Assembly: GCA_003445035.1 (NCBI GenBank)
Contig: DLVV01000016.1
Coordinates: 22,929-43,908, forward strand
Direction: 5' to 3'
DNA: 20,980 nt
DNA from: Planctomycetaceae bacterium
GTDB taxonomy: Bacteria; Planctomycetota; Planctomycetia; Planctomycetales; Planctomycetaceae
The notes beneath the pieces were generated by a model. It was not told the origin of the DNA and searched no databases. It saw only the letters and a list, made by a program, of their open reading frames with translations. Below are positions 8,701 to 19,132 of the stretch, piece after piece. Each line of letters begins with the position of its first letter. Position 1 is the first letter of the stretch. Both the position numbers and the translations under genes were made by a program.

Positions 8701-10263
8701 ATGGACCTGGAACACATGACCAAGCGACCGCCACTCCATCTTCGCGTACTCCTGACATTTCTGATGGGTCTGCCCATCGCCCAGAACGCCGACGCTGCGG
8801 CCCCTGGCCGCAATTCCAAGCCGCTCAATGTTGTCCTGATCACTGTTGATGACATGAATTGCGATTCAGTGGGTGTCTACGGTTGTCCGATTCCGAACAT
8901 CACACCACATATCGACCGACTGGCATCGCAGGGAATTCGCTTCGAACACAGCCACGTGACTATCGCCATCTGCCAGCCAACACGGGCCGTCTGGATGACC
9001 GGCCGGTTCCCACACCGCAGCGGAGCTCTTGGCTTTGACCCCATTGCCCGGAATGTCCCCACGTTGCTCGAAACCCTCAAACAGGGCGGCTACTTCACCG
9101 GCATATTGGCCAAGGTCTCCCACGTGGTCCCAACCCGCACGAGGCACTGGGATGTGGTTGTCCGCGCCAATCAACTCGGCACCGGGAGAGACCCCGACCG
9201 TTACCACGCCCACACCGCCAGGTTTCTCAAGCAGGCCGCCGCCAGCGGCAGACCTTTTTTCTTGATGGCCAATTCCCAGGACCCCCACCGGCCATTCGCG
9301 GGAAGCAGGCAGGAACGCAATCGGGTCAGGAAGGCTCGTAACAAGCGCAACAAGAAGACACGAAAAAACGAGAACACCTCTGCCAGTCAACCACGGCGCG
9401 CCGCCAGGAAGCCGCGAGCCAATCCGGACCCTCTGACCCTCGCGGCGATCCCTCGGCGATTCCAACCCGAACAGGTTCCCGTGCCGGGATTCCTTCCGGA
9501 CCTGCCCGCAATCCGGCAAGAGTTATCCGAGTACTATGCCTCGGTTCACCGCGCCGACAAGATTGTCGGACGAGTGCTGGCCGCACTGGACGAAGCCGGG
9601 GTACGAGACAACACCCTGGTGATGTTCCTCTCGGATCACGGAATGCCGTTGCCGTTCGCAAAGACCAATTGCTGGAGACACTCGACGCGCACCCCCTGGA
9701 TCATCCGCTGGCCCGGAGTGACACAATCGGGCCAACACGATCGCCAACACATGATCGCGGGAATTGACCTGGCCCCCACCATCCTGGAGGCCGTCAACTT
9801 GCCCCAGTTGACTGACTGTGATGGACGGTCCTTCACGCCGCTCCTGTCAGGAAAATCACAAGGTGGCCGCGATCACGTGATCACGCACATCAACCGTACT
9901 GCCGGTCGCCGCGAGTTTCCGATGAGATCGGTTGTGGAAACCCGGTTCGGCTACATCTTCAATGCCTGGCCCGACGGCAAGACACTGTTCCGCAACGAAT
10001 CACAATCGGGCTTGACCATGAAGGCCATGAAGAAGGCGGCTGCCAACAACTCCAAAATCGCCGCACGGGTCAAGCTGTTCCTCAAGCGAACGCCGGAAGA
10101 ATTGTACGACTACCAAGTCGATCCTGATGCCCGCCACAACCTCGCCAACGACCCACAACACCGCAAGACTCTCGAACGACTTCGGGCCCGCCTGCTGGCC
10201 CACATGCGTTCCACCGTCGACCCTCAACTCGCAGCCTTCGGCAAAGCCACCGGGCAGCGGTGA
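8701..10263 (+). CDS. Secreted sulfatase, heparan N-sulfatase-like
   Basis: This formylglycine-type sulfatase has 520 residues from ATG 8701. An in-frame ATG at 8716 is equally possible and opens a cleaner signal peptide (MTKRPPLHLRVLLTFLMGLP). The metal-binding VDDM is at residues 49-52. The activation motif CQPTR starts at Cys91, the residue converted to formylglycine. SDHGMPLPFAKTNCWRHSTR (about 308-327) supplies later metal and sulfate ligands and resembles the N-sulfoglucosamine sulfohydrolase branch. LYDYQVDPDARHNLA is the usual C-terminal block. Residues about 201-245 form a very basic, low-complexity insertion (KARNKRNKKTRKNENT and following). It is probably periplasmic or secreted and removes sulfate from a glycan. 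It ends 8 bases from the oppositely oriented sulfatase. Exact substrate is unknown. Confidence 0.92.
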   Translation: MDLEHMTKRPPLHLRVLLTFLMGLPIAQNADAAAPGRNSKPLNVVLITVDDMNCDSVGVYGCPIPNITPHIDRLASQGIRFEHSHVTIAICQPTRAVWMTGRFPHRSGALGFDPIARNVPTLLETLKQGGYFTGILAKVSHVVPTRTRHWDVVVRANQLGTGRDPDRYHAHTARFLKQAAASGRPFFLMANSQDPHRPFAGSRQERNRVRKARNKRNKKTRKNENTSASQPRRAARKPRANPDPLTLAAIPRRFQPEQVPVPGFLPDLPAIRQELSEYYASVHRADKIVGRVLAALDEAGVRDNTLVMFLSDHGMPLPFAKTNCWRHSTRTPWIIRWPGVTQSGQHDRQHMIAGIDLAPTILEAVNLPQLTDCDGRSFTPLLSGKSQGGRDHVITHINRTAGRREFPMRSVVETRFGYIFNAWPDGKTLFRNESQSGLTMKAMKKAAANNSKIAARVKLFLKRTPEELYDYQVDPDARHNLANDPQHRKTLERLRARLLAHMRSTVDPQLAAFGKATGQR

Positions 10264-10271
10264 CCTCCGTC

Positions 10272-11759
10272 TTACCGCCGAGACCGGGTCGTGGGCTTAC
10301 GATCCCACGGCTGCGGCGCTGTCGGCGAATAGCGAGGCCGCGGATCACGTTTCGGGAACCCGGCGATGACGCGGGCGAATTTCCTGATTGCGGCAACGTG
10401 TTCCGGTTCTCGACTGCCAACCAGGTTCGTCGCTTCCTCGGGATCGTTGGCCAGGTCAACCAGCCGCGTAACCCGTCCCGCTTCGACCAGGACCTTGAAG
10501 CGTTTGTCCCTGAGCACCCGATCGGTATAGACCTGTGTTGGCCGGACCCCCTTTTCGTCGAGCACAGCAGCCCCTCGGCCCATGGACAGAATCCACGAAC
10601 GGGGGCCCTCCTTCTTCTTTCCCAGGAGAACCGGCGCAATCGACTGCCCGTCAACAACAAGGTCCTCGGGAAGATCGACTCCTGCCAATTCAGCAAAGGT
10701 TGGCAGCATGTCGGTGAAATCGATCAACGTGTGATTGACCGCGCCGGCAGGCACAGTCCCGGGACAGTTCACGATGAAAGGCTGCCAGGGACCGTTTTCG
10801 GTCAGCAACGCCTTCCCCCCACGCACAACGCGAACCCCAGAGGCCACCTGCATCCGAGCCCGAAACCGTTTGCTCGTCCCGTTGTCGGTAGTAAAGATCA
10901 CGATCGTACGGCGGCGAATGTCGAGTTGGTCGAGAGTCGTCACCAGCCGACCGACAATGCGATCGGTGTAACGGACCATCGCCTTGTGCTTCTCCAATCG
11001 CGTCCTGGCTTGCGGGTCTGCCGGCGTGTGCACCTGCGGGCCGTGAGTCAACACCATCGGAAAATACAGCAACATCGGCTGACGTCGATGGCGTCGCATG
11101 AAATCCACCAGGAAGTCGGTGTACACATCGGGCCCGAACCGCTCCTTGTGCGTCCGGCTCCGCTCTCCACTGGAAAACACATACGGATCCCAGTACCGAC
11201 GTCCGCTGGGAGGGTTTTGGCCTTCGTAACCGGTCCACATACACCACTCATCAAAGCCGTGCTCTTTCAGTACCCCGGGCTGAACCCGAAAATCATTGAT
11301 CTGCCACTTCCCGGCGATCGCGGTCGCGTATCCGCCGCCACGGAGCAGCCGAGCAAATGTCACGTTCTGCCCCGGGTCGAAATGACATCCCGCGCCCCAG
11401 CGAGGAACGTCCCAGTGGTTGCACCAGCCATGGCGAAACGGGTACTGACCGGTCAGTAACGTGACGCGGGTCGGAGTACACTGCGGCATCGAGTAAGCGT
11501 TCGTGAACCGCATGCCGCCACGGGCCAAGGCGTCAATATGGGGCGTCTTCAATTCCAGCCCGCCGTAGCAACTGATCCACTCCGGCCCCAGGTCGTCAAC
11601 CATGATGAACAGGATGTTCGGACGGGACACCTCCGCCGACGCCTGGACGGGCAGCAGCAGTCCAATCGGAAGGATCGCCCAAAGGGTCACCATCTCCAGG
11701 GGGTTCATCAGCGACTCGCGAAGTCGCTCCAGGCTGTGACGTTCGATGTTGTCCAACAC
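10272..11759 (-). CDS. Secreted sulfatase, arylsulfatase A-like
   Basis: I choose the GTG at 11759 as start because GGAGGAG lies 5 bases upstream of it (11765-11771), giving 495 residues. An ATG at 11708 (MNPLEMVTLWAILPIGLLL) is the main alternative and opens the signal peptide directly. An ATG at 11825 is rejected because it falls inside a terminator hairpin. The metal-binding motif is MVDDLG. The activation motif is MPQCTPTRVTLLTGQYPFRHG-like, with Cys94 as the formylglycine precursor. TTDNGTSKRF gives the later metal ligands. The C-terminus holds the LVDLANDPEEATNL block and a basic tail. It should hydrolyse sulfate esters outside the cytoplasm. It lies downstream of the small haem protein gene and is separated from it by a strong terminator, so its expression probably depends on read-through or an unseen promoter. 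Substrate unknown. Confidence 0.92.
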   Translation of the reverse strand: MLDNIERHSLERLRESLMNPLEMVTLWAILPIGLLLPVQASAEVSRPNILFIMVDDLGPEWISCYGGLELKTPHIDALARGGMRFTNAYSMPQCTPTRVTLLTGQYPFRHGWCNHWDVPRWGAGCHFDPGQNVTFARLLRGGGYATAIAGKWQINDFRVQPGVLKEHGFDEWCMWTGYEGQNPPSGRRYWDPYVFSSGERSRTHKERFGPDVYTDFLVDFMRRHRRQPMLLYFPMVLTHGPQVHTPADPQARTRLEKHKAMVRYTDRIVGRLVTTLDQLDIRRRTIVIFTTDNGTSKRFRARMQVASGVRVVRGGKALLTENGPWQPFIVNCPGTVPAGAVNHTLIDFTDMLPTFAELAGVDLPEDLVVDGQSIAPVLLGKKKEGPRSWILSMGRGAAVLDEKGVRPTQVYTDRVLRDKRFKVLVEAGRVTRLVDLANDPEEATNLVGSREPEHVAAIRKFARVIAGFPKRDPRPRYSPTAPQPWDRKPTTRSRR

Positions 11760-11794
11760 GGTCGCTCCTCCGGTCATGCATCTTCCCGGCAGGA

Positions 11795-11835
11795 CAAAAA
11801 AATAACAGGAGGGCATGGAAACCATGCCCTCCTGT
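11795..11835 (-). terminator. Canonical intrinsic terminator after the small haem-protein gene
   Basis: A perfect 14-bp stem (11805-11818 with 11822-11835) encloses a 3-base loop. On the minus strand it is followed by TATTTTTTT. It lies 32 bases after the stop at 11868 and about 25 bases ahead of the Shine-Dalgarno of the next sulfatase. It is the only textbook hairpin-plus-U-tract terminator I found in the window. Confidence 0.92.
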
Positions 11836-11867: not shown

Positions 11868-12242
11868 CTACTTCTTCGCAGGCGTGGCGGGCAGCTTGCC
11901 AGCCTTCAGGCGATCACCGTAGGTCTTCTTTTCCTTCTTATCCTTCGAAACCTTGACCTTTTCGGTCTTGGTCAGGGCTTCGACGATCTTCGCCACGACC
12001 TTGCAGTTCTTCTTCGGAATCGACTTCTGCAGTGCGACGCCGTAGTCGTTGCGGGGCTTGCCCTTTTCGCCAGCCTTCTTTTTGCGATGGCAGACGTTGC
12101 ACTTGGCCTTCTTGGCCGCAGTCACCTTCTTGTACTTCGACAGAAACGCCTTCTGATACTGAGGACGTGCATCAGCTTCCGTGGCGGCCACGAAGGCGAT
12201 CGCCAATACCAACACACCACTGAGAGTAAATAGCTTGTTCAT
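11868..12242 (-). CDS. Small exported lysine-rich monohaem c-type protein
   Basis: This gene encodes 124 residues. Residues 1-25 form a signal peptide (MNKLFTLSGVLVLAIAFVAA ending ADA). The mature chain of about 99 residues carries one haem-attachment motif, CNVCH, at 48-52, followed by RNDYGVAL near 64-71. About 29 of the mature residues are lysine, almost all encoded by AAG. The mature chain has no methionine and no histidine apart from His52, so the sixth haem ligand cannot be Met or a second His; Cys80 or a lysine are the remaining side-chain options. GGGAG stands 8 bases before the ATG, a plausible promoter lies further upstream, and a strong terminator follows, all suggesting good expression as its own unit. 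A periplasmic electron carrier is the simplest idea. I recognise a planctomycete-style small CxxCH protein but no named family. Confidence 0.85.
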   Translation of the reverse strand: MNKLFTLSGVLVLAIAFVAATEADARPQYQKAFLSKYKKVTAAKKAKCNVCHRKKKAGEKGKPRNDYGVALQKSIPKKNCKVVAKIVEALTKTEKVKVSKDKKEKKTYGDRLKAGKLPATPAKK

Positions 12243-12394: not shown

Positions 12395-12500
12395 CCGAAC
12401 TGTGGCACTAGCCGTATTGGAGAACTGAACGGTTCTGCCTAAAGTGGGTAACTTCGGTCGACCGTCCGCCGCATCGTCAACCCTTAGGAGAACCGCACAA

Positions 12501-13844
12501 ATGGGCCTTTGTTTTCCTCGATTTGCGAGACGACAGTCCAGGATGGCTCTTCTCGGCCTGTTGCTGTTGACGCTGGCCACAACGGCAATATCGACTTCGT
12601 GCTACGCAGCCCCGCCGAACGTGCTATTGATCATCTCCGACGACCAATCGTGGACCGATTTCGGCTTCATGGGCCATCCAGCGATTCGAACGCCACACAT
12701 CGATCGCCTGGCACGACAATCTGCCGTGTTTCCTCATGGCTACGTGCCCAGCAGTCTCTGTCGCCCCAGCCTGGCAACGATGGTCACGGGGCTTTATCCG
12801 CACCAACACGGGATCACCGGGAATGACCCACCCCGCGGGACCGATCGGGGCAAAATGCTCAAGCACATCCGGGCACACCCCACGTTGCCTCGCTGGCTCG
12901 CCGCGAAGGGCTTTCGAAGCCTTCAGACGGGCAAGTGGTGGGAGGGCCATCCACGCCTCGCTGGATTCACCGATGCAATGACTCACGGTGATCCGAAACG
13001 CGGTGGCCGCCACGGGGACCTGGGCCTGAAGATAGGCCGGACCGGGTTGGAGCCGATCTTTCAATTCATCGAGGACTGTGGAGAGACTCCTTTCTTTATC
13101 TGGTATGCCCCTTTCCTCCCCCACACGCCTCATAATCCGCCACAGCGACTGCTGGACCGCTATCGTGCCAAGGACAGGCCCATCGCGTTATCCCGTTACT
13201 ACGCCATGTGCACCTGGTTCGACGAAACCTGCGGACAGTTGCTCGACCACCTGGACCGCAAACAACTCAGTGACAACACCCTTGTCCTGTTCGTCGTGGA
13301 CAACGGCTGGATCCAGCGGACACCACAGACCGAGGTCCCCAAGGGATGGCGTTTCCGTTTCGCCCCCGGGTCGAAACGTTCCCCCAACGAAGGTGGCGTG
13401 CGGACACCGATCATGGTTCGTTGGCCCGGCCATATCAAACCCGGTACCCGACAGGCCCTGGCCAGCAGCATCGACCTGGCCCCCACAATTCTGGCCGCCA
13501 CCGGCGTACGCCCCAAGAAGAAGCTTCCCGGCCTTGACCTGATCACCCTGGCTGGCCAACCCCCGGACGCGCAAGCGACTCGCAAGACGATCTACGGTGA
13601 GATTTTCGCTCACGACGTGGCCGACATCGACCGCCCATCGGCCAGTCTTCAGTACCGTTGGCTACGACATGGTGCATGGAAGCTGATTTCTCGAGCCGGC
13701 TCGAGCACTCCCCAACTCTTCAATCTTGGCAACGATCCGCACGAGATCCGAGACCTGGCCGGAGGCCAGTCGAACCGCACCTCTCGCATGCAACAACTGC
13801 TGGACGACTGGTGGCATCCCTCACGCCGCCAGTCACGCCCCTGA
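12501..13844 (+). CDS. Secreted sulfatase with atypical CRPSL activation motif
   Basis: The start ATG at 12501 follows AGGAG at 12486-12490, giving 447 residues; an upstream in-frame ATG at 12444 lacks such a site. The N-terminus is a signal peptide with a basic n-region and a core MALLGLLLLTLATTAIS, ending before APPNVLLIISDDQ. The ISDDQ aspartates bind metal. The activation site reads LCRPSLATMVTGLYPHQHG, with Cys87 in the formylglycine position. The canonical Arg of CxPxR is replaced by Leu91, a variant I recall in a planctomycete sulfatase branch. VVDNGW (about 270-275) and a GGVRTPIMVRWPG segment complete the active-site framework. It is divergent from the small haem-protein gene and its last 12 bases overlap the end of glnE. 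Likely a periplasmic glycan sulfatase; substrate unknown. Confidence 0.9.
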   Translation: MGLCFPRFARRQSRMALLGLLLLTLATTAISTSCYAAPPNVLLIISDDQSWTDFGFMGHPAIRTPHIDRLARQSAVFPHGYVPSSLCRPSLATMVTGLYPHQHGITGNDPPRGTDRGKMLKHIRAHPTLPRWLAAKGFRSLQTGKWWEGHPRLAGFTDAMTHGDPKRGGRHGDLGLKIGRTGLEPIFQFIEDCGETPFFIWYAPFLPHTPHNPPQRLLDRYRAKDRPIALSRYYAMCTWFDETCGQLLDHLDRKQLSDNTLVLFVVDNGWIQRTPQTEVPKGWRFRFAPGSKRSPNEGGVRTPIMVRWPGHIKPGTRQALASSIDLAPTILAATGVRPKKKLPGLDLITLAGQPPDAQATRKTIYGEIFAHDVADIDRPSASLQYRWLRHGAWKLISRAGSSTPQLFNLGNDPHEIRDLAGGQSNRTSRMQQLLDDWWHPSRRQSRP

Positions 13845-16800
13845 CGGATCCAATCGGGCCGACAGCTCTTCAACCAGGCTCGCATGCCGGTCGATCTCCG
13901 CGGCCAGCCCGTCTGGGTTGCCGTCGATTTCGAGACGCCGGGCCAAGAATGTGAATTCCGGCGTCTCGCTTGGAGGTACCGCGAGGTCTCGCGCATCGCC
14001 CCGGACGACCCTCAACGCGTCAATCAACCGGCGATGAAACACGTAAGCCTCCCGGAGATGTCCCCACGTCTCCTCGTCAACAAGTTGCCGGTCATGCAGT
14101 GCATCGATGGCCTCCAGCGTATTGGTGGTTCGAACTTCAAAGAACCGATGCCCGTGTTCCAACTGCAAGCCCTGGACGAGATATTCGCAGTCGACCAGCC
14201 CCCCGGGACTCAACTTCGCGTTGAACGTACCGGCTCGAACCAACTGCCGCACTTGCCGATCCCGCATGGCACGCATCGCTGCGACATCAAAAACGTCGTC
14301 ACTGTAAATCCATGAATCCCTGAGGCTTTCCAGTTCATCGCCGAGGCCCCGATCACCGGCCACAGTCCGCAACTTGACCAGCGCCTGCCGCTCAAACGGC
14401 CACGCCGGCCCCTCGCCCTGGTAATAAGTTGTGAACGCCGCCAGCGAACTCGCCAAGGGACCCGCCTGGCCATGCGGCCGCAGCCTCAGATCCAACTCGA
14501 ACACGCCGGCCCGATCCGAACGAATTGTCGTCAGCAAACGCTCGATGACCCGGCAATAAAACTCCGACGCGGATACGACGCGGGGCGAGGCCTCAACACC
14601 GGCATCGTCGTAAACGCACACCAGTTCAATATCGGAGGCGAATCCCAGTTCACGTCCACCGAACTTCCCGAGGCCGACAACCGCCATCCGACCTGGCGGA
14701 TCGACGCCGAGCTTGTCACTGACTTCCTGGCAACACAGATCCACGGCCTGTGCCACAACGCACTCGGCCACGTGTCCAAGTTCTCGGGAGAACTGGCCAA
14801 ACTCACGGTCCGGCCACAGGATGTGCCGCATGTCCGCCGCGAACATCTCGCGGTCCTTGAACACGTTCAGACGTCGAACCCGATCCTCGCGGCCATCACA
14901 CTCAACCAGTTGACCAGACAGGACTTTGGCGAGTTCCGACGGGGACGGGGCCTGGCTGGCCGCTTCAACGTCGTCCAGCAAAGGAAACAGCGTTTCGTGC
15001 TGCAACCTGAGAAAATCCTGCCACAGAAACTCTCTGACCCCAAGCACCCGAGCCAACGTCGACAGCACTTCGGGTTTCTCCAGGGTCGCCACGCTGGCGG
15101 ACCAATCGTCCTGTTCCAGCAGCGTCGAGAGCAACTCTCGGAATTGACGCAATGCGAACAACGGATTCGGAGACTTTGGCAACAGGTGTGTGAAGTGCTT
15201 GGTCAGCACGACCACCGTCTTCAACTCCTGTATCCGCTTCGGATCGGTCAATTTGTTTCCGGCCGAATCGACCACATCCAACCGATCTCTTACCCGCTGT
15301 CCCCGGGTCTCGATCACCACTCGCCGGACCAGGATTCCTGCCAGGGAGAGTGCGTGCGTACAACCATAAAGGAATGCGACCGTGTCATCGGCACGAATCG
15401 TCAACACGGTCACCTCGTCGGAGGAGTCGTTATCAATGTCGATCTCTACCGGCAGCAGACTGCCGCTGACATCCGCGACCCGTGACACGCTACGTGCCAC
15501 CTGCTCCGTCAATCCCGACAGGGCCTCCTCACGTTTCCCCTCAGCGGACGCCTCGACGAATTCGATCAGATCACCGTGGTACCGCGACCACAACACGTCC
15601 CAGTTGCACCCTTCGGGAAGGCTCAACTCAAACGTGTCGACGCAACGGGACGGACCGCCCGGGACATCCAGCGTGAACGCGTGACCGTTGAGAATTTCGA
15701 CTCCGTGAACAACCAGCAGGCCGCTGATTGCTGCCAACAGCCCTTGAGAGTCGAACGCGACCACCGTCAATTCTGCCCTGCCGTCCTCCAGCCAGACCGG
15801 CTCCACCATAGCCAAGCCAAAGCGGTCCAACTCCGCCAGCAAAGTCTCGTGCCGCGAGCGTTGGTCGGGCCCAAACACTTCCAGGTACAACGGTTCGTCG
15901 AACGACGTCATGTCGACAGAGCCGGAGTTATCGAACGTGTCACCGAGCACTCGATCGAACACCTCGCGGATCTCGCGGCAATGCTCGGTGTAGTGTTTCA
16001 CGAAAGGGCCGGCATCGTCGAAATCCAAACGCCTGGCAAGGTAGGACAACTCTCCTTCGTCCACCGGCAGGGCATGCACCTGCTTGTTGTGCATCAGTTG
16101 CAACGAGTGTTCGATCGCTCGCAACAGCAAGTACCCGGTCGAAAGCTTGCGGTACTCCTCAGCCCGCAGACAGCCTGCGGCGGCCAGGGCTGTCAGCGAC
16201 CGCAACGTGTTTGTCCCCAGGACCTCGGGGTGCTCCTCGGCATTCTGCAATTGCAGAAACTGTGTCACGAATTCGATATCTCTGATCGACCCGACTCCCG
16301 ATTTCACCTCACCGTGCTCACGCAGTTTGCGCGGCAACGCCTCCTCGATCCGCCGCTTCATGTCCCGTACCATCTCACGCTGCCCCGTCCGACTTTTCTC
16401 CACAATCAGTCGTGACACCGTTGCCAACACCCGGTCTCCCACCATTCTGTCGCCGGCGACCGCCCTGGCCTTGACCAGTGCCTGGAGTTCCCACGCCGCG
16501 GCGTGCGTTTCCAGGTATTCCCCATAAGCGGCAACGTCCGCCACCAGCGGCCCAGAACTCCCCCACGGCCGCAATCGCATGTCCACGCGATACAAGAACC
16601 CCTCGGAGGTCATGCGGCCCAGTTCGCGAACCAGCTTTTGAGCAATTTTCAGAGTGGTCTCGTCGGGACCATCGGCCAGAAGCAGCAGGTCAATATCGGA
16701 ACTGTAGTTGAGTTCCTCACCGCCGAGTTTTCCCAGGGCCACCACGGCCAGCGGCATTTCCCTTCCAGAGGTTGACCCGGAAACCGTAGCGATCGACACC

Positions 16801-17408
16801 TCCAGCACCGCCTGGATCGTTGCGTCAGCCAGCAGCGACAGTTGAAGCGTGATCCGCCGCAGGTCCATCAGGCCGAAACAGTCGCATGCTGCGATCCTCA
16901 GGATTTCCCACCGCTGAATCCGTCTGACAGCGTCGATCGGATCCAACTCGCCCTCCGAGGCGGCCAGTCGAAGATCTGCCAGAAACTCATCTCGGCTACG
17001 CACCTCCGACAACCGCCTCGACTCGGTCAACCTGCGAAGATATTCCGGATGCTTGAGCACCAGCTCGGTCAAGAACTGGCTGTTGACCAAAAGACGAATC
17101 AGGACTTCGACGGCTCGCGATCTTTGCTCGAGGAACTCCAGCCACCCCGCCGGATCGTCCCAGACCCGAAGACACCGCCGAAGATTCCGCAGGGATGTGT
17201 CCGGGACCGCATTCTGTGCCATCACACCCAGAAGTGATGCCAGCAACTCCGCCGAAAGGCCATCCTCTCCGGCCGTCTCGACAATCACTTGCCAATCGGC
17301 CCGGGCCGTCGCAGGATCGACAAATCCCATCTCGGCCAGCGCGTCGAGCAACTGTCGCTCATCAGGGCCCGGGGGCCGCAACAACCGGTCGGCCGTGTCC
17401 CGGTACAT
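13833..17408 (-). CDS. glnE: Glutamine synthetase adenylyltransferase/adenylyl-removing enzyme with inserted ACT domains
   Basis: The product adenylylates and deadenylylates glutamine synthetase in the cytoplasm to tune nitrogen assimilation. The ATG at 17408 is preceded by AGGAG with 9-base spacing, giving 1191 residues against about 946 in E. coli. The two homologous halves are both complete. The N-terminal half (about 1-490) has LGKLGGEELNYSSDIDLLLL (225-244), YRVDMRLRPWGSSGPL (273-288) and GVGSIRDIEFVTQFLQL. The C-terminal half (about 765-1191) has LGKFGGRELGFASDIELV (913-930), FELDLRLRPHGQAGPL (970-985) and LVDCEYLVQGLQL. Between them, about 505-730, are two segments resembling the ACT domains of GlnD: LTVVAFDSQGLLAAISGLLV (547-566) and a second from VTVLTIRADDTVAFLYGC (666-683) to KLTDP. 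Its start lies 52 bases after the leucine-rich-repeat gene, perhaps one operon. Confidence 0.95.
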   Translation of the reverse strand: MYRDTADRLLRPPGPDERQLLDALAEMGFVDPATARADWQVIVETAGEDGLSAELLASLLGVMAQNAVPDTSLRNLRRCLRVWDDPAGWLEFLEQRSRAVEVLIRLLVNSQFLTELVLKHPEYLRRLTESRRLSEVRSRDEFLADLRLAASEGELDPIDAVRRIQRWEILRIAACDCFGLMDLRRITLQLSLLADATIQAVLEVSIATVSGSTSGREMPLAVVALGKLGGEELNYSSDIDLLLLADGPDETTLKIAQKLVRELGRMTSEGFLYRVDMRLRPWGSSGPLVADVAAYGEYLETHAAAWELQALVKARAVAGDRMVGDRVLATVSRLIVEKSRTGQREMVRDMKRRIEEALPRKLREHGEVKSGVGSIRDIEFVTQFLQLQNAEEHPEVLGTNTLRSLTALAAAGCLRAEEYRKLSTGYLLLRAIEHSLQLMHNKQVHALPVDEGELSYLARRLDFDDAGPFVKHYTEHCREIREVFDRVLGDTFDNSGSVDMTSFDEPLYLEVFGPDQRSRHETLLAELDRFGLAMVEPVWLEDGRAELTVVAFDSQGLLAAISGLLVVHGVEILNGHAFTLDVPGGPSRCVDTFELSLPEGCNWDVLWSRYHGDLIEFVEASAEGKREEALSGLTEQVARSVSRVADVSGSLLPVEIDIDNDSSDEVTVLTIRADDTVAFLYGCTHALSLAGILVRRVVIETRGQRVRDRLDVVDSAGNKLTDPKRIQELKTVVVLTKHFTHLLPKSPNPLFALRQFRELLSTLLEQDDWSASVATLEKPEVLSTLARVLGVREFLWQDFLRLQHETLFPLLDDVEAASQAPSPSELAKVLSGQLVECDGREDRVRRLNVFKDREMFAADMRHILWPDREFGQFSRELGHVAECVVAQAVDLCCQEVSDKLGVDPPGRMAVVGLGKFGGRELGFASDIELVCVYDDAGVEASPRVVSASEFYCRVIERLLTTIRSDRAGVFELDLRLRPHGQAGPLASSLAAFTTYYQGEGPAWPFERQALVKLRTVAGDRGLGDELESLRDSWIYSDDVFDVAAMRAMRDRQVRQLVRAGTFNAKLSPGGLVDCEYLVQGLQLEHGHRFFEVRTTNTLEAIDALHDRQLVDEETWGHLREAYVFHRRLIDALRVVRGDARDLAVPPSETPEFTFLARRLEIDGNPDGLAAEIDRHASLVEELSARLDPSGA

Positions 17409-17460: not shown

Positions 17461-18822
17461 TCACCGCTTGACCTCACAACCCGGCACAGCCTTCCGGAAT
17501 GCCGCCAAGGCGTCGTCACCAACCTGGGTGAAGCTGAGATTGAGTTCCTTCAGCCCCGTCAACGCTTCCAACGACTTCAGCCCGGCATCAGTGATGCGCG
17601 TCCTCGACAGGTTGAGCGTCAGCAACCCCGAGTGGCCCAGTAACCCCAAGATGCCCTTGTCGCCGACATCGGTTTCCTCGAGGTTGAGCCACTCGAGCTG
17701 CTTCATCCCGGCCAGGTGCGGCACCCCAAGGTCAGTAACCTTTGTGAACCAGAGATTCAGCCGTTTGAGTTTCCTCAGTGTCGCGAGGTGCGCCAGCCCG
17801 GCGTCATCGACCTGTGTCTCACTGAGGTCGATGCGTTCCAGCCCCTTGACAGTTGCCACGCTTGCCAGCCCGGCCCCTTGAACCGCAGTGTCCCGCAACA
17901 CCAGGGTCTTTAACTCTGTCATTCCCGACAGCGGCCTGAGTCCCTTGTCTGTGATCCCGGTCCGAAACAGGTTGATCTCTCGCAACTTCGTCATCCCAGC
18001 CAGCGACTCCATCCCCTCGTCGGTGATCGCTGTATCCTCAAGAATCAACGAGGTGAGGCCGGTCAGCCCCTCGATCGCCTTCAGCCCGACATCGGAGACC
18101 TGAGGGTTTCTCATCTTGAGGCTTCTCAAGGTCTTCACCCGGCCCAGGTATTCCAGTCCAGTGTCGGTAATCAGCACACACCCCCGAATGTCCACCAGCT
18201 TGAGTTTTTTCAGGGGGACCAAATGAGCCAGGGCCTCGTCACTGATGTTGGTATACAGCAGATGAATTTGCTCAAGCCCCTGCATTGACGCAATGTGCGC
18301 CACACCCTCATTCGTGACGTTCGAACACCGTCGCAGGTTCAGGGACCTCAGCGTCGACAGCTTGGCAACGGTGGCCAAACCGTCATCGGTCAGTTCGCTG
18401 TTCTCCAACCCCAGGCTCCTGAGCTTCGACAGTTCTGCCAGGTGCCCGACAGCCGTGTCCCCGATGTTCGCTCCCCAGATCTTCAGGTCTTTGAGATCAG
18501 CCAGCCCGGCCAACTGCTGGCACTGTTCGTCATCAAACGGACATTCTGTCAAATCGACGGAAATCACGGCACCGTCCAGACGGGTCCATCGCCCGCCCGC
18601 CGCCTGAATTGCGTCAACAGCAGACTGTTCCCGTTCCGTCTGAGCAGCCCGCTGCTGTTCGTCAGGTTGATCGTCGTTGTGCTGGTCCGCCCCTGTCGCA
18701 CGTGGCGAATCTGTCGAGGAATCGGAGACAGAAGGTTCTGGCCCGCCATTCGATGGACAGCCAGCCACCATCGCTGTCAGCAGCAGACAGGCACATCTCT
18801 GGACGAATCGGGAACACGTCAT
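17461..18822 (-). CDS. Leucine-rich-repeat lipoprotein, 15 repeats
   Basis: The ATG at 18822 is chosen because AAGGTGAG lies 6 bases upstream and the next residues form a lipoprotein signal (MTCSRFVQRCACLLLTAMVAG) with lipobox VAGC, lipidated Cys22. This gives 453 residues. Residues about 23-65 are a polar, acidic, probably disordered linker. From about residue 86 to the end the protein is 15 consecutive leucine-rich repeats. Thirteen follow a 24-residue pattern (LxxLxLxxTxITDxGLxxLxxLxx) and the fourth and sixth are 25 residues with a Cys at the variable position, like cysteine-containing repeats. No catalytic domain is present, so a binding or scaffold role on the cell envelope is likely, partner unknown. 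It precedes glnE on the same strand by 52 bases, but no functional link to nitrogen control is evident. Confidence 0.9.
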   Translation of the reverse strand: MTCSRFVQRCACLLLTAMVAGCPSNGGPEPSVSDSSTDSPRATGADQHNDDQPDEQQRAAQTEREQSAVDAIQAAGGRWTRLDGAVISVDLTECPFDDEQCQQLAGLADLKDLKIWGANIGDTAVGHLAELSKLRSLGLENSELTDDGLATVAKLSTLRSLNLRRCSNVTNEGVAHIASMQGLEQIHLLYTNISDEALAHLVPLKKLKLVDIRGCVLITDTGLEYLGRVKTLRSLKMRNPQVSDVGLKAIEGLTGLTSLILEDTAITDEGMESLAGMTKLREINLFRTGITDKGLRPLSGMTELKTLVLRDTAVQGAGLASVATVKGLERIDLSETQVDDAGLAHLATLRKLKRLNLWFTKVTDLGVPHLAGMKQLEWLNLEETDVGDKGILGLLGHSGLLTLNLSRTRITDAGLKSLEALTGLKELNLSFTQVGDDALAAFRKAVPGCEVKR

Positions 18823-19132
18823 GATGGACTCACCTTGCGACGGATCACGCTGGCGACGCCGGCTCACGTCGACCGTTCCAACCGCCGACGGTCAGCACAG
18901 CCTCAAAGCCGCCCCCAAGATTAGTGGTGCTGCGCCACCAAGGCAACGACCCCCTGCAGGCGGTCGACGACCAGGCAAAAGACCGGTCCGGCCAGTTGTT
19001 GCCCTTCAACCGGTCGTGCTATCATTTCCCGCGTGCTGGCCCGAAACGTCTCGCTCGTATGCCGGCTGCAACCCCACTCATACGTCAGTTCCCGTTGTCC
19101 ACCAGACTTACGTTTCTCCTGGGAAGATCAAC
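18823..19132. other. Intergenic region between the divergent LRR and oxidoreductase genes
   Basis: These 310 bases separate two divergently transcribed genes. The plus-strand frame stays open through it, but no start codon with a ribosome-binding site or recognisable protein was seen, so I read it as non-coding. It contains the Shine-Dalgarno of the LRR gene (18829-18836), a plausible plus-strand promoter (18996-19025) and the Shine-Dalgarno GGGAAG (19121-19126) of the oxidoreductase. I found no convincing minus-strand promoter. Confidence 0.6.
18996..19025 (+). promoter_or_regulatory. Probable extended -10 promoter of the Gfo/Idh/MocA gene
   Basis: TTGTTG (18996-19001) is followed after 18 bases by TATCAT (19020-19025, 5 of 6 matches). 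TG sits one base upstream of the hexamer (TGCTATCAT), making an extended -10. Predicted start is near 19032, giving a leader of about 100 bases before the ATG at 19133. Confidence 0.5.

Follow-up and report, generated by a model that had tools for sequence, protein, structure and literature searches.

The GlnD-PII-GlnE cascade is the textbook two-cycle circuit. In Escherichia coli GlnE, a central regulatory region links the deadenylylase (AR) end to the adenylylase (AT) end (PMC12409994). For GlnD, the ACT domains are considered to be the glutamine sensors (PMC3173338), and GlnE is not regulated by GlnK in other actinomycetes (PMC3612183). Here, we analyze a glnE gene in a 20,980-nucleotide stretch of the genome of a Planctomycetaceae bacterium (contig DLVV01000016.1, positions 22,929 to 43,908; hereafter, the window), the product of which carries a GlnD-type pair of ACT domains between its AR and AT halves. 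The ACT-bearing GlnEs, referred to here as ACT-class, are an old, deep, and separate GlnE subfamily. The reading we favor, with somewhat better than even confidence, is that the ACT pair of this subfamily, placed before the AT half, binds an amino acid and raises the adenylylation of glutamine synthetase (GS).

The ACT module of the window GlnE, including its leading helices, occupies residues ~503-736 (15201..15902; glnE and all its domains lie on the minus strand), as delimited by GlnD models, an AlphaFold2 prediction, and structure matches. Within it, ACT1 (residues ~531-642; 15483..15818) has the loop DSQGLL, and ACT2 (residues ~653-736; 15201..15452) has the loop DDTVAFLY, where relatives mostly have D-T-x-G-F-L-Y; both units were placed by sequence comparison and predicted structure. 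The similarity to the ACT pair at the GlnD C-terminus covers residues 508-732, and the isolated 226-residue stretch is recognized by the GlnD models PRK05092 (E = 3.8e-18), PRK03381 (7e-12), and TIGR01693 (9e-12). The general ACT models of Pfam respond weakly and stay under their cut-off (PF13291, 0.017; PF24931, 0.018), so the case for ACT rests on the GlnD-specific models and on structure. AlphaFold2 predicts the module with a local confidence score (pLDDT) of 92.5 as two alpha/beta units, each beta-beta-alpha-beta-beta-alpha. We read both predicted units as ACT, with the fourth strand coming from the N-terminal side, and their closest solved folds in a Foldseek search are mostly amino-acid-regulated ACT proteins. 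A preliminary description, made from the DNA letters, had proposed a pair of GlnD-like ACT domains at 15219..15896, and the GlnD match, the model confidence, and the structure matches all uphold the pair. The proposed location was right and the extent slightly short; of the checks that it suggested, the general Pfam ACT models fell below cut-off, and the predicted fold reads as ACT.

The gene (13833..17408), verified by an open reading frame (ORF) check, encodes 1191 amino acids from the ATG at 17408; an upstream TTG start would give a product of 1229. Pfam finds two GlnE domains in the one chain (190.7 and 146.1 bits; cut-off 24) in addition to GlnD_UR_UTase helical domains. The AR nucleotidyltransferase domain (residues ~100-329; 16422..17111), supported by Pfam GlnE at residues 101-328 and by hidden Markov model (HMM) comparison, contains NYSSDIDL, a DxD site, and is followed by the AR helical domain (residues ~346-489; 15942..16373; Pfam GlnD_UR_UTase at 348-487). 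Beyond the ACT module, the second Pfam GlnE match corresponds to the AT nucleotidyltransferase domain (residues ~780-1027; 14328..15071), which contains GFASDIEL, a DxE site, and HMM comparison places the AT helical domain at residues ~1040-1186 (13851..14291). Each half has its carboxylate pair, D238/D240 in AR and D926/E928 in AT, the latter (14625..14633) being invariant in 45 of 45 alignment rows.

The E. coli protein has 946 residues and bears its catalytic carboxylates at positions 173/175 and 701/703, and the window GlnE is indeed 245 residues longer, as previously described. This excess had been placed exactly between the two halves, which holds only in part: the span between catalytic aspartates is 688 residues in the window GlnE (D238-D926) versus 528 in E. 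coli (D173-D701), so that ~160 of the additional residues fall between the two sites, whereas ~65 are N-terminal and ~20 C-terminal. The ACT module thus partly replaces the E. coli linker. The window protein remains under the three NCBI GlnE equivalog cut-offs (477.5 against 625, 469.9 against 487, and 360.3 against 724 bits), which are naming thresholds rather than biological definitions. These scores fit a divergent subfamily, and the protein is therefore filed as a GlnE subfamily member and not as an ordinary orthologue.

The separate standing of this subfamily is evident in a tree of individual enzyme halves. Its 70 rows sample the ACT-class AT halves (20 of 37), the ACT-class AR halves (16 of 33), and the conventional AT and AR halves (16 of 19 in each case), and include two GlnDs. 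All 20 ACT-class AT halves fall in one clade (SH-aLRT 100, stem 0.72), and the 16 ACT-class AR halves form one group with a support of only 68. Conventional AR halves group together (16/16, support 95), as do 15 of the 16 conventional AT halves (support 96), with the E. coli AT half unresolved. All C-terminal halves, conventional and ACT-class, may descend from one AR/AT duplication: the best tree places them on one side with a support of 54, and a constraint joining both ACT-class halves is not rejected (p-AU 0.205). In a tree of ACT pairs, a single branch (support 99) splits the 28 pairs from GlnE from the 16 from GlnD; the joining of ACT pair and GlnE is consequently old, whichever its direction. 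Together, the two trees rule out a recent local insertion of the ACT pair into a planctomycete GlnE, and the initial framing of the module as an insert gives way to that of an old, separate subfamily.

Active sites show the same division. Of 236 ACT-class proteins, 232 have DxE at the AT site, two have DxD, and two do not match the pattern; all 131 AR sites are DxD. An anchored pattern returned DxD for all 19 conventional AT halves, and for 37 ACT-class AT halves it gave DxE in 32, DxD in two, and an unusable result in three, one of which (locus L089) printed SDIEL. Unlike other ACT-class proteins, those of G200 and G280 (loci L084 and L085, respectively, both of family f80) combine the ACT module with DxD in the AT half. 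DxE is tolerated within the nucleotidyltransferase superfamily to which GlnE belongs.

ACT-class GlnEs are found well beyond the organism of the window. A protein search with the ACT stretch retrieved 52 proteins, namely 51 GlnE-like proteins (1173-1298 residues when full-length) and one GlnD, and a search from a Thermoanaerobaculia member gave 72 proteins, mostly GlnE, with some GlnDs at the end of the list. Their source names, mostly from metagenomes, span five phyla (Planctomycetota, Thermoanaerobaculia, Nitrospinota, Anaerolineae/Ardenticatena, and Rhodothermia/Bacteroidota). Some of these proteins already have ACT marked in database domain annotation; our search of open-licence PMC papers found none on an ACT-bearing GlnE, a scope that does not establish absence from print. 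At closer range, 392 genomes of the window's phylum were sampled: 28 from its own family (window genome included), 12 from other families of its class, and 352 others. GlnE is present in 144 of the 392. In every family genome, a GlnE ORF of 1202-1386 residues contains an ACT match, and its domains run in the order AR-ACT-ACT-AT (28/28: the window protein and loci L086-L093, nine in all, and 19 more, each of the 19 with a DxE AT site). The other 12 genomes of the class all have GlnE and none has an ACT match inside it; in 11 the match occurs only in an ORF of 864-921 residues, and in one nowhere. Among the 352 remaining genomes, seven have an ACT-class GlnE (G004, G037, G077, G111, G200, G280, and G290). 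Seven long ORFs (1022-1584 residues) outside the family were also matched by the model of the ACT stretch and proved on checking to be GlnD-like rather than GlnE.

Several of these relatives retain the ACT pair together with the AT half while the rest of the protein changes. G290 (L079) has the permuted order ACT-ACT-AT-AR; in G111, ACT-ACT-AT precedes a stretch read as a truncated AR N-terminus; and in G077 and G037, the ORF encodes ACT-ACT-AT and no AR domain. G077, G037, and G111 each have one GlnE-family match per genome. Such forms are not confined to the sampled genomes. A search with a 764-residue protein of Tautonia plasticadhaerens (P0114) found at least 133 relatives; among the 120 listed, most are 738-795 residues long and six are named Tautonia or Isosphaeraceae. 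Among the 248 proteins collected that have both ACT and AT, fragments included, 110 show no AR domain. Of these AR-less proteins, 87 begin with Met and measure 700-860 residues, others are fragments, and G037, G077, and G111 contribute three as locus ORFs. The AR-less proteins of Tautonia (P0114, P0127, and relatives) bear the public name "[protein-PII] uridylyltransferase family protein" despite their Pfam GlnE domain. It would be odd for AR-less forms to keep the ACT pair if the pair served AR; the AT half is, we infer, its likelier target.

Glutamine sensing by the module, as first suggested, is plausible. Most likely, the pair would bind an amino acid, with glutamine as the first candidate, and when nitrogen is plentiful it would most likely turn up GS adenylylation by the AT half, a modification that the AR half would reverse. 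In the organism of the window, this direct signal would probably be integrated with the ordinary GlnD/PII signal, assuming that PII acts on this GlnE as well. The proposed target is in place. The GlnA of the window organism carries DKDLYDLQPEELGEVP, the motif with the presumed target tyrosine, by analogy with E. coli, and a protein related to this GlnA occurs in 27 of 27 chosen genomes. Of 30 GS loci scanned, 26 yielded the motif, and the tyrosine is present in each (Y-D-[LM] in 23, Y-E-L in G004, G200, and G280); the other four (L128, L129, L132, and L148) yielded none. In G290, glnA adjoins the permuted glnE gene downstream on the same strand in an operon-like arrangement, and the two genes are ~2.3 kb apart in G077 and ~1.6 kb apart, on opposite strands, in G280.

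The preliminary description had further suggested that this GlnE has less need for PII and that lineages with the ACT stretch might lack glnD or glnB. The family of the window does not conform to this expectation, and a general absence of either gene from such lineages is ruled out. The genome of the window encodes a PII with the uridylylation tyrosine in its T-loop alongside a GlnD above the equivalog cut-off. PII occurs in all 28 family genomes, as does a second ACT match, located in an ORF of 897-979 residues. The identity of these second ORFs as GlnD was supported in 25 of 25 cases by a phmmer match to the organism's own GlnD (468-854 bits), in the window organism and G307 by the equivalog model, and in G048 by ORF length and an ACT2 match only. 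In the organism's own GlnD (L012, 1423-4155), the ACT1 loop is degenerate (GEHSEGCF) and the ACT2 loop canonical (DRPGLLY), in contrast to the window GlnE pair, in which ACT1 looks the more canonical. Outside the family, G004, G200, and G280, which share the order AR-ACT-ACT-AT, have both PII and GlnD, the GlnD of G280 being split over two ORFs. A reduced need for PII is conceivable in the four relatives with the ACT pair first (G290, G037, G077, and G111): none of the four has a full GlnD-like match, and a PII match was found in G077 and G111 and not in G290 or G037. With completeness values of 84% (G290), 95% (G037), 99% (G077), and 98% (G111), 8% contamination in G037, and only about two tree lineages among the four, these gaps are suggestive only.

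A bolder extension, which we hold tentatively and at somewhat less than even confidence, is that ACT-ACT-AT may constitute a self-contained, one-component, glutamine-sensing AMPylase. The planctomycete of the window would have built this unit into a bidirectional enzyme that works together with PII. Lineages with the ACT pair first could use it to control GS with no GlnD and, in some cases, no PII. Where AR is missing, which would leave no GlnE-type deadenylylase, adenylylation may be one-way or reversed by other means.

Several observations weigh against direct amino acid control by the ACT pair. GlnD and PII are constant companions of the module in the family (28/28), so the pair could be a mere helper, and glnA and glnE of the window genome lie on different contigs. 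The TM-scores of ACT hits to the whole tandem are only 0.24-0.41 (first 14 Foldseek rows), which means that the relative arrangement of the two units is unlike any solved pair, and the global confidence (pTM) of the full-length model is 0.52, so that contacts between ACT and AT are not reliably predicted. The loops themselves are uneven. The ACT2 pattern D-x-x-G-F-L has Gly in 212 of 236 subfamily proteins, Ala in eight, and Met in two, with no pattern match in 14, and the window protein is among the eight with Ala. Its ACT1 does hold the Gly of the beta1-alpha1 ligand loop, which its ACT2 lacks, whereas close relatives show Glu at that position of ACT1, and ACT1 is strongly degenerate in some family members (G307, G344, and genus g2).

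A rival reading is that the pair serves protein docking or dimerization, with PII or GS as possible partners, and binds no small molecule. The constant presence of PII and GlnD suits such a role, as does the variability of ACT1 loops even between close relatives. On the other hand, G290 and G037 retain the module with no PII match, although the completeness of G290 is 84% and the contamination of G037 is 8%, and few parts of the module are as well conserved as the ACT2 loop; we consider docking unlikely. Quite improbable is a decayed structural spacer with no regulatory role: the failure of Pfam ACT models to reach cut-off and the very divergent ACT1 of G307, G344, and genus g2 point that way, but the fold is predicted with high confidence, domain order is identical in all family genomes, and the module survives in permuted and AR-less forms. 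That the DxE half no longer adenylylates GS, and modifies another protein or uses another nucleotide, fits its long-branched clade and the DxD of conventional AT halves, but is very improbable given that both carboxylates are present, that the module occurs alongside DxD in G200 and G280, that the GS tyrosine is retained, and that glnA lies near the gene in three relatives.

The surroundings of glnE offer a few separate observations. A leucine-rich-repeat protein (17461-18867, minus; LRR by Pfam) with a lipoprotein-like N-terminus is encoded next to it, ending ~50 bases upstream of glnE, and L003 and L004 have ORFs of comparable length and N-terminus directly upstream of their glnE genes. On the downstream side, the window encodes a small, secreted-looking protein with a CNVCHRKKK motif (11868-12242, minus); downstream of glnE, an ORF in L004 resembles this protein, and one in L003 shares an ARPQYQKAF stretch. 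Three further ORFs (8701-10263, plus; 10272-11825, minus; 12444-13844, plus) are candidate sulfatases.

The fusion of sensor-type domains to the adenylylase half, seen across several phyla and retained where the enzyme is permuted or halved, points to a shorter circuit than the textbook cascade, and the ACT pair is a candidate for the site at which glutamine could directly control GS adenylylation. There is also a consequence for annotation, in that AR-less forms named as PII uridylyltransferases resemble GS adenylyltransferases. Compared with E. coli GlnE, the window protein has the same two homologous halves, each a nucleotidyltransferase and a helical domain, AR first and AT second, and full-length structure comparison matches it best to 3k7d and 1v4a; it differs in having an ACT pair in place of a short central regulatory linker, DxE instead of DxD at the AT site, and an AT half in a clade of its own. 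With GlnD, it shares a tandem ACT pair of the same kind, with a match that starts before ACT1 and runs through ACT2, but here the pair is internal and fused to an adenylylase half, and the HD (uridylyl-removing) family, a feature of GlnD, is not among the Pfam matches of the window GlnE. The Isosphaeraceae ACT-ACT-AT proteins, such as P0114, have the same ACT pair and DxE AT half, but no AR half in the protein. Finally, the regulatory ACT pairs of CASTOR1, threonine dehydratase, and aspartate kinase share the tandem ACT regulatory fold, but belong to other enzymes and, as the low TM-scores indicate, have another pair geometry.
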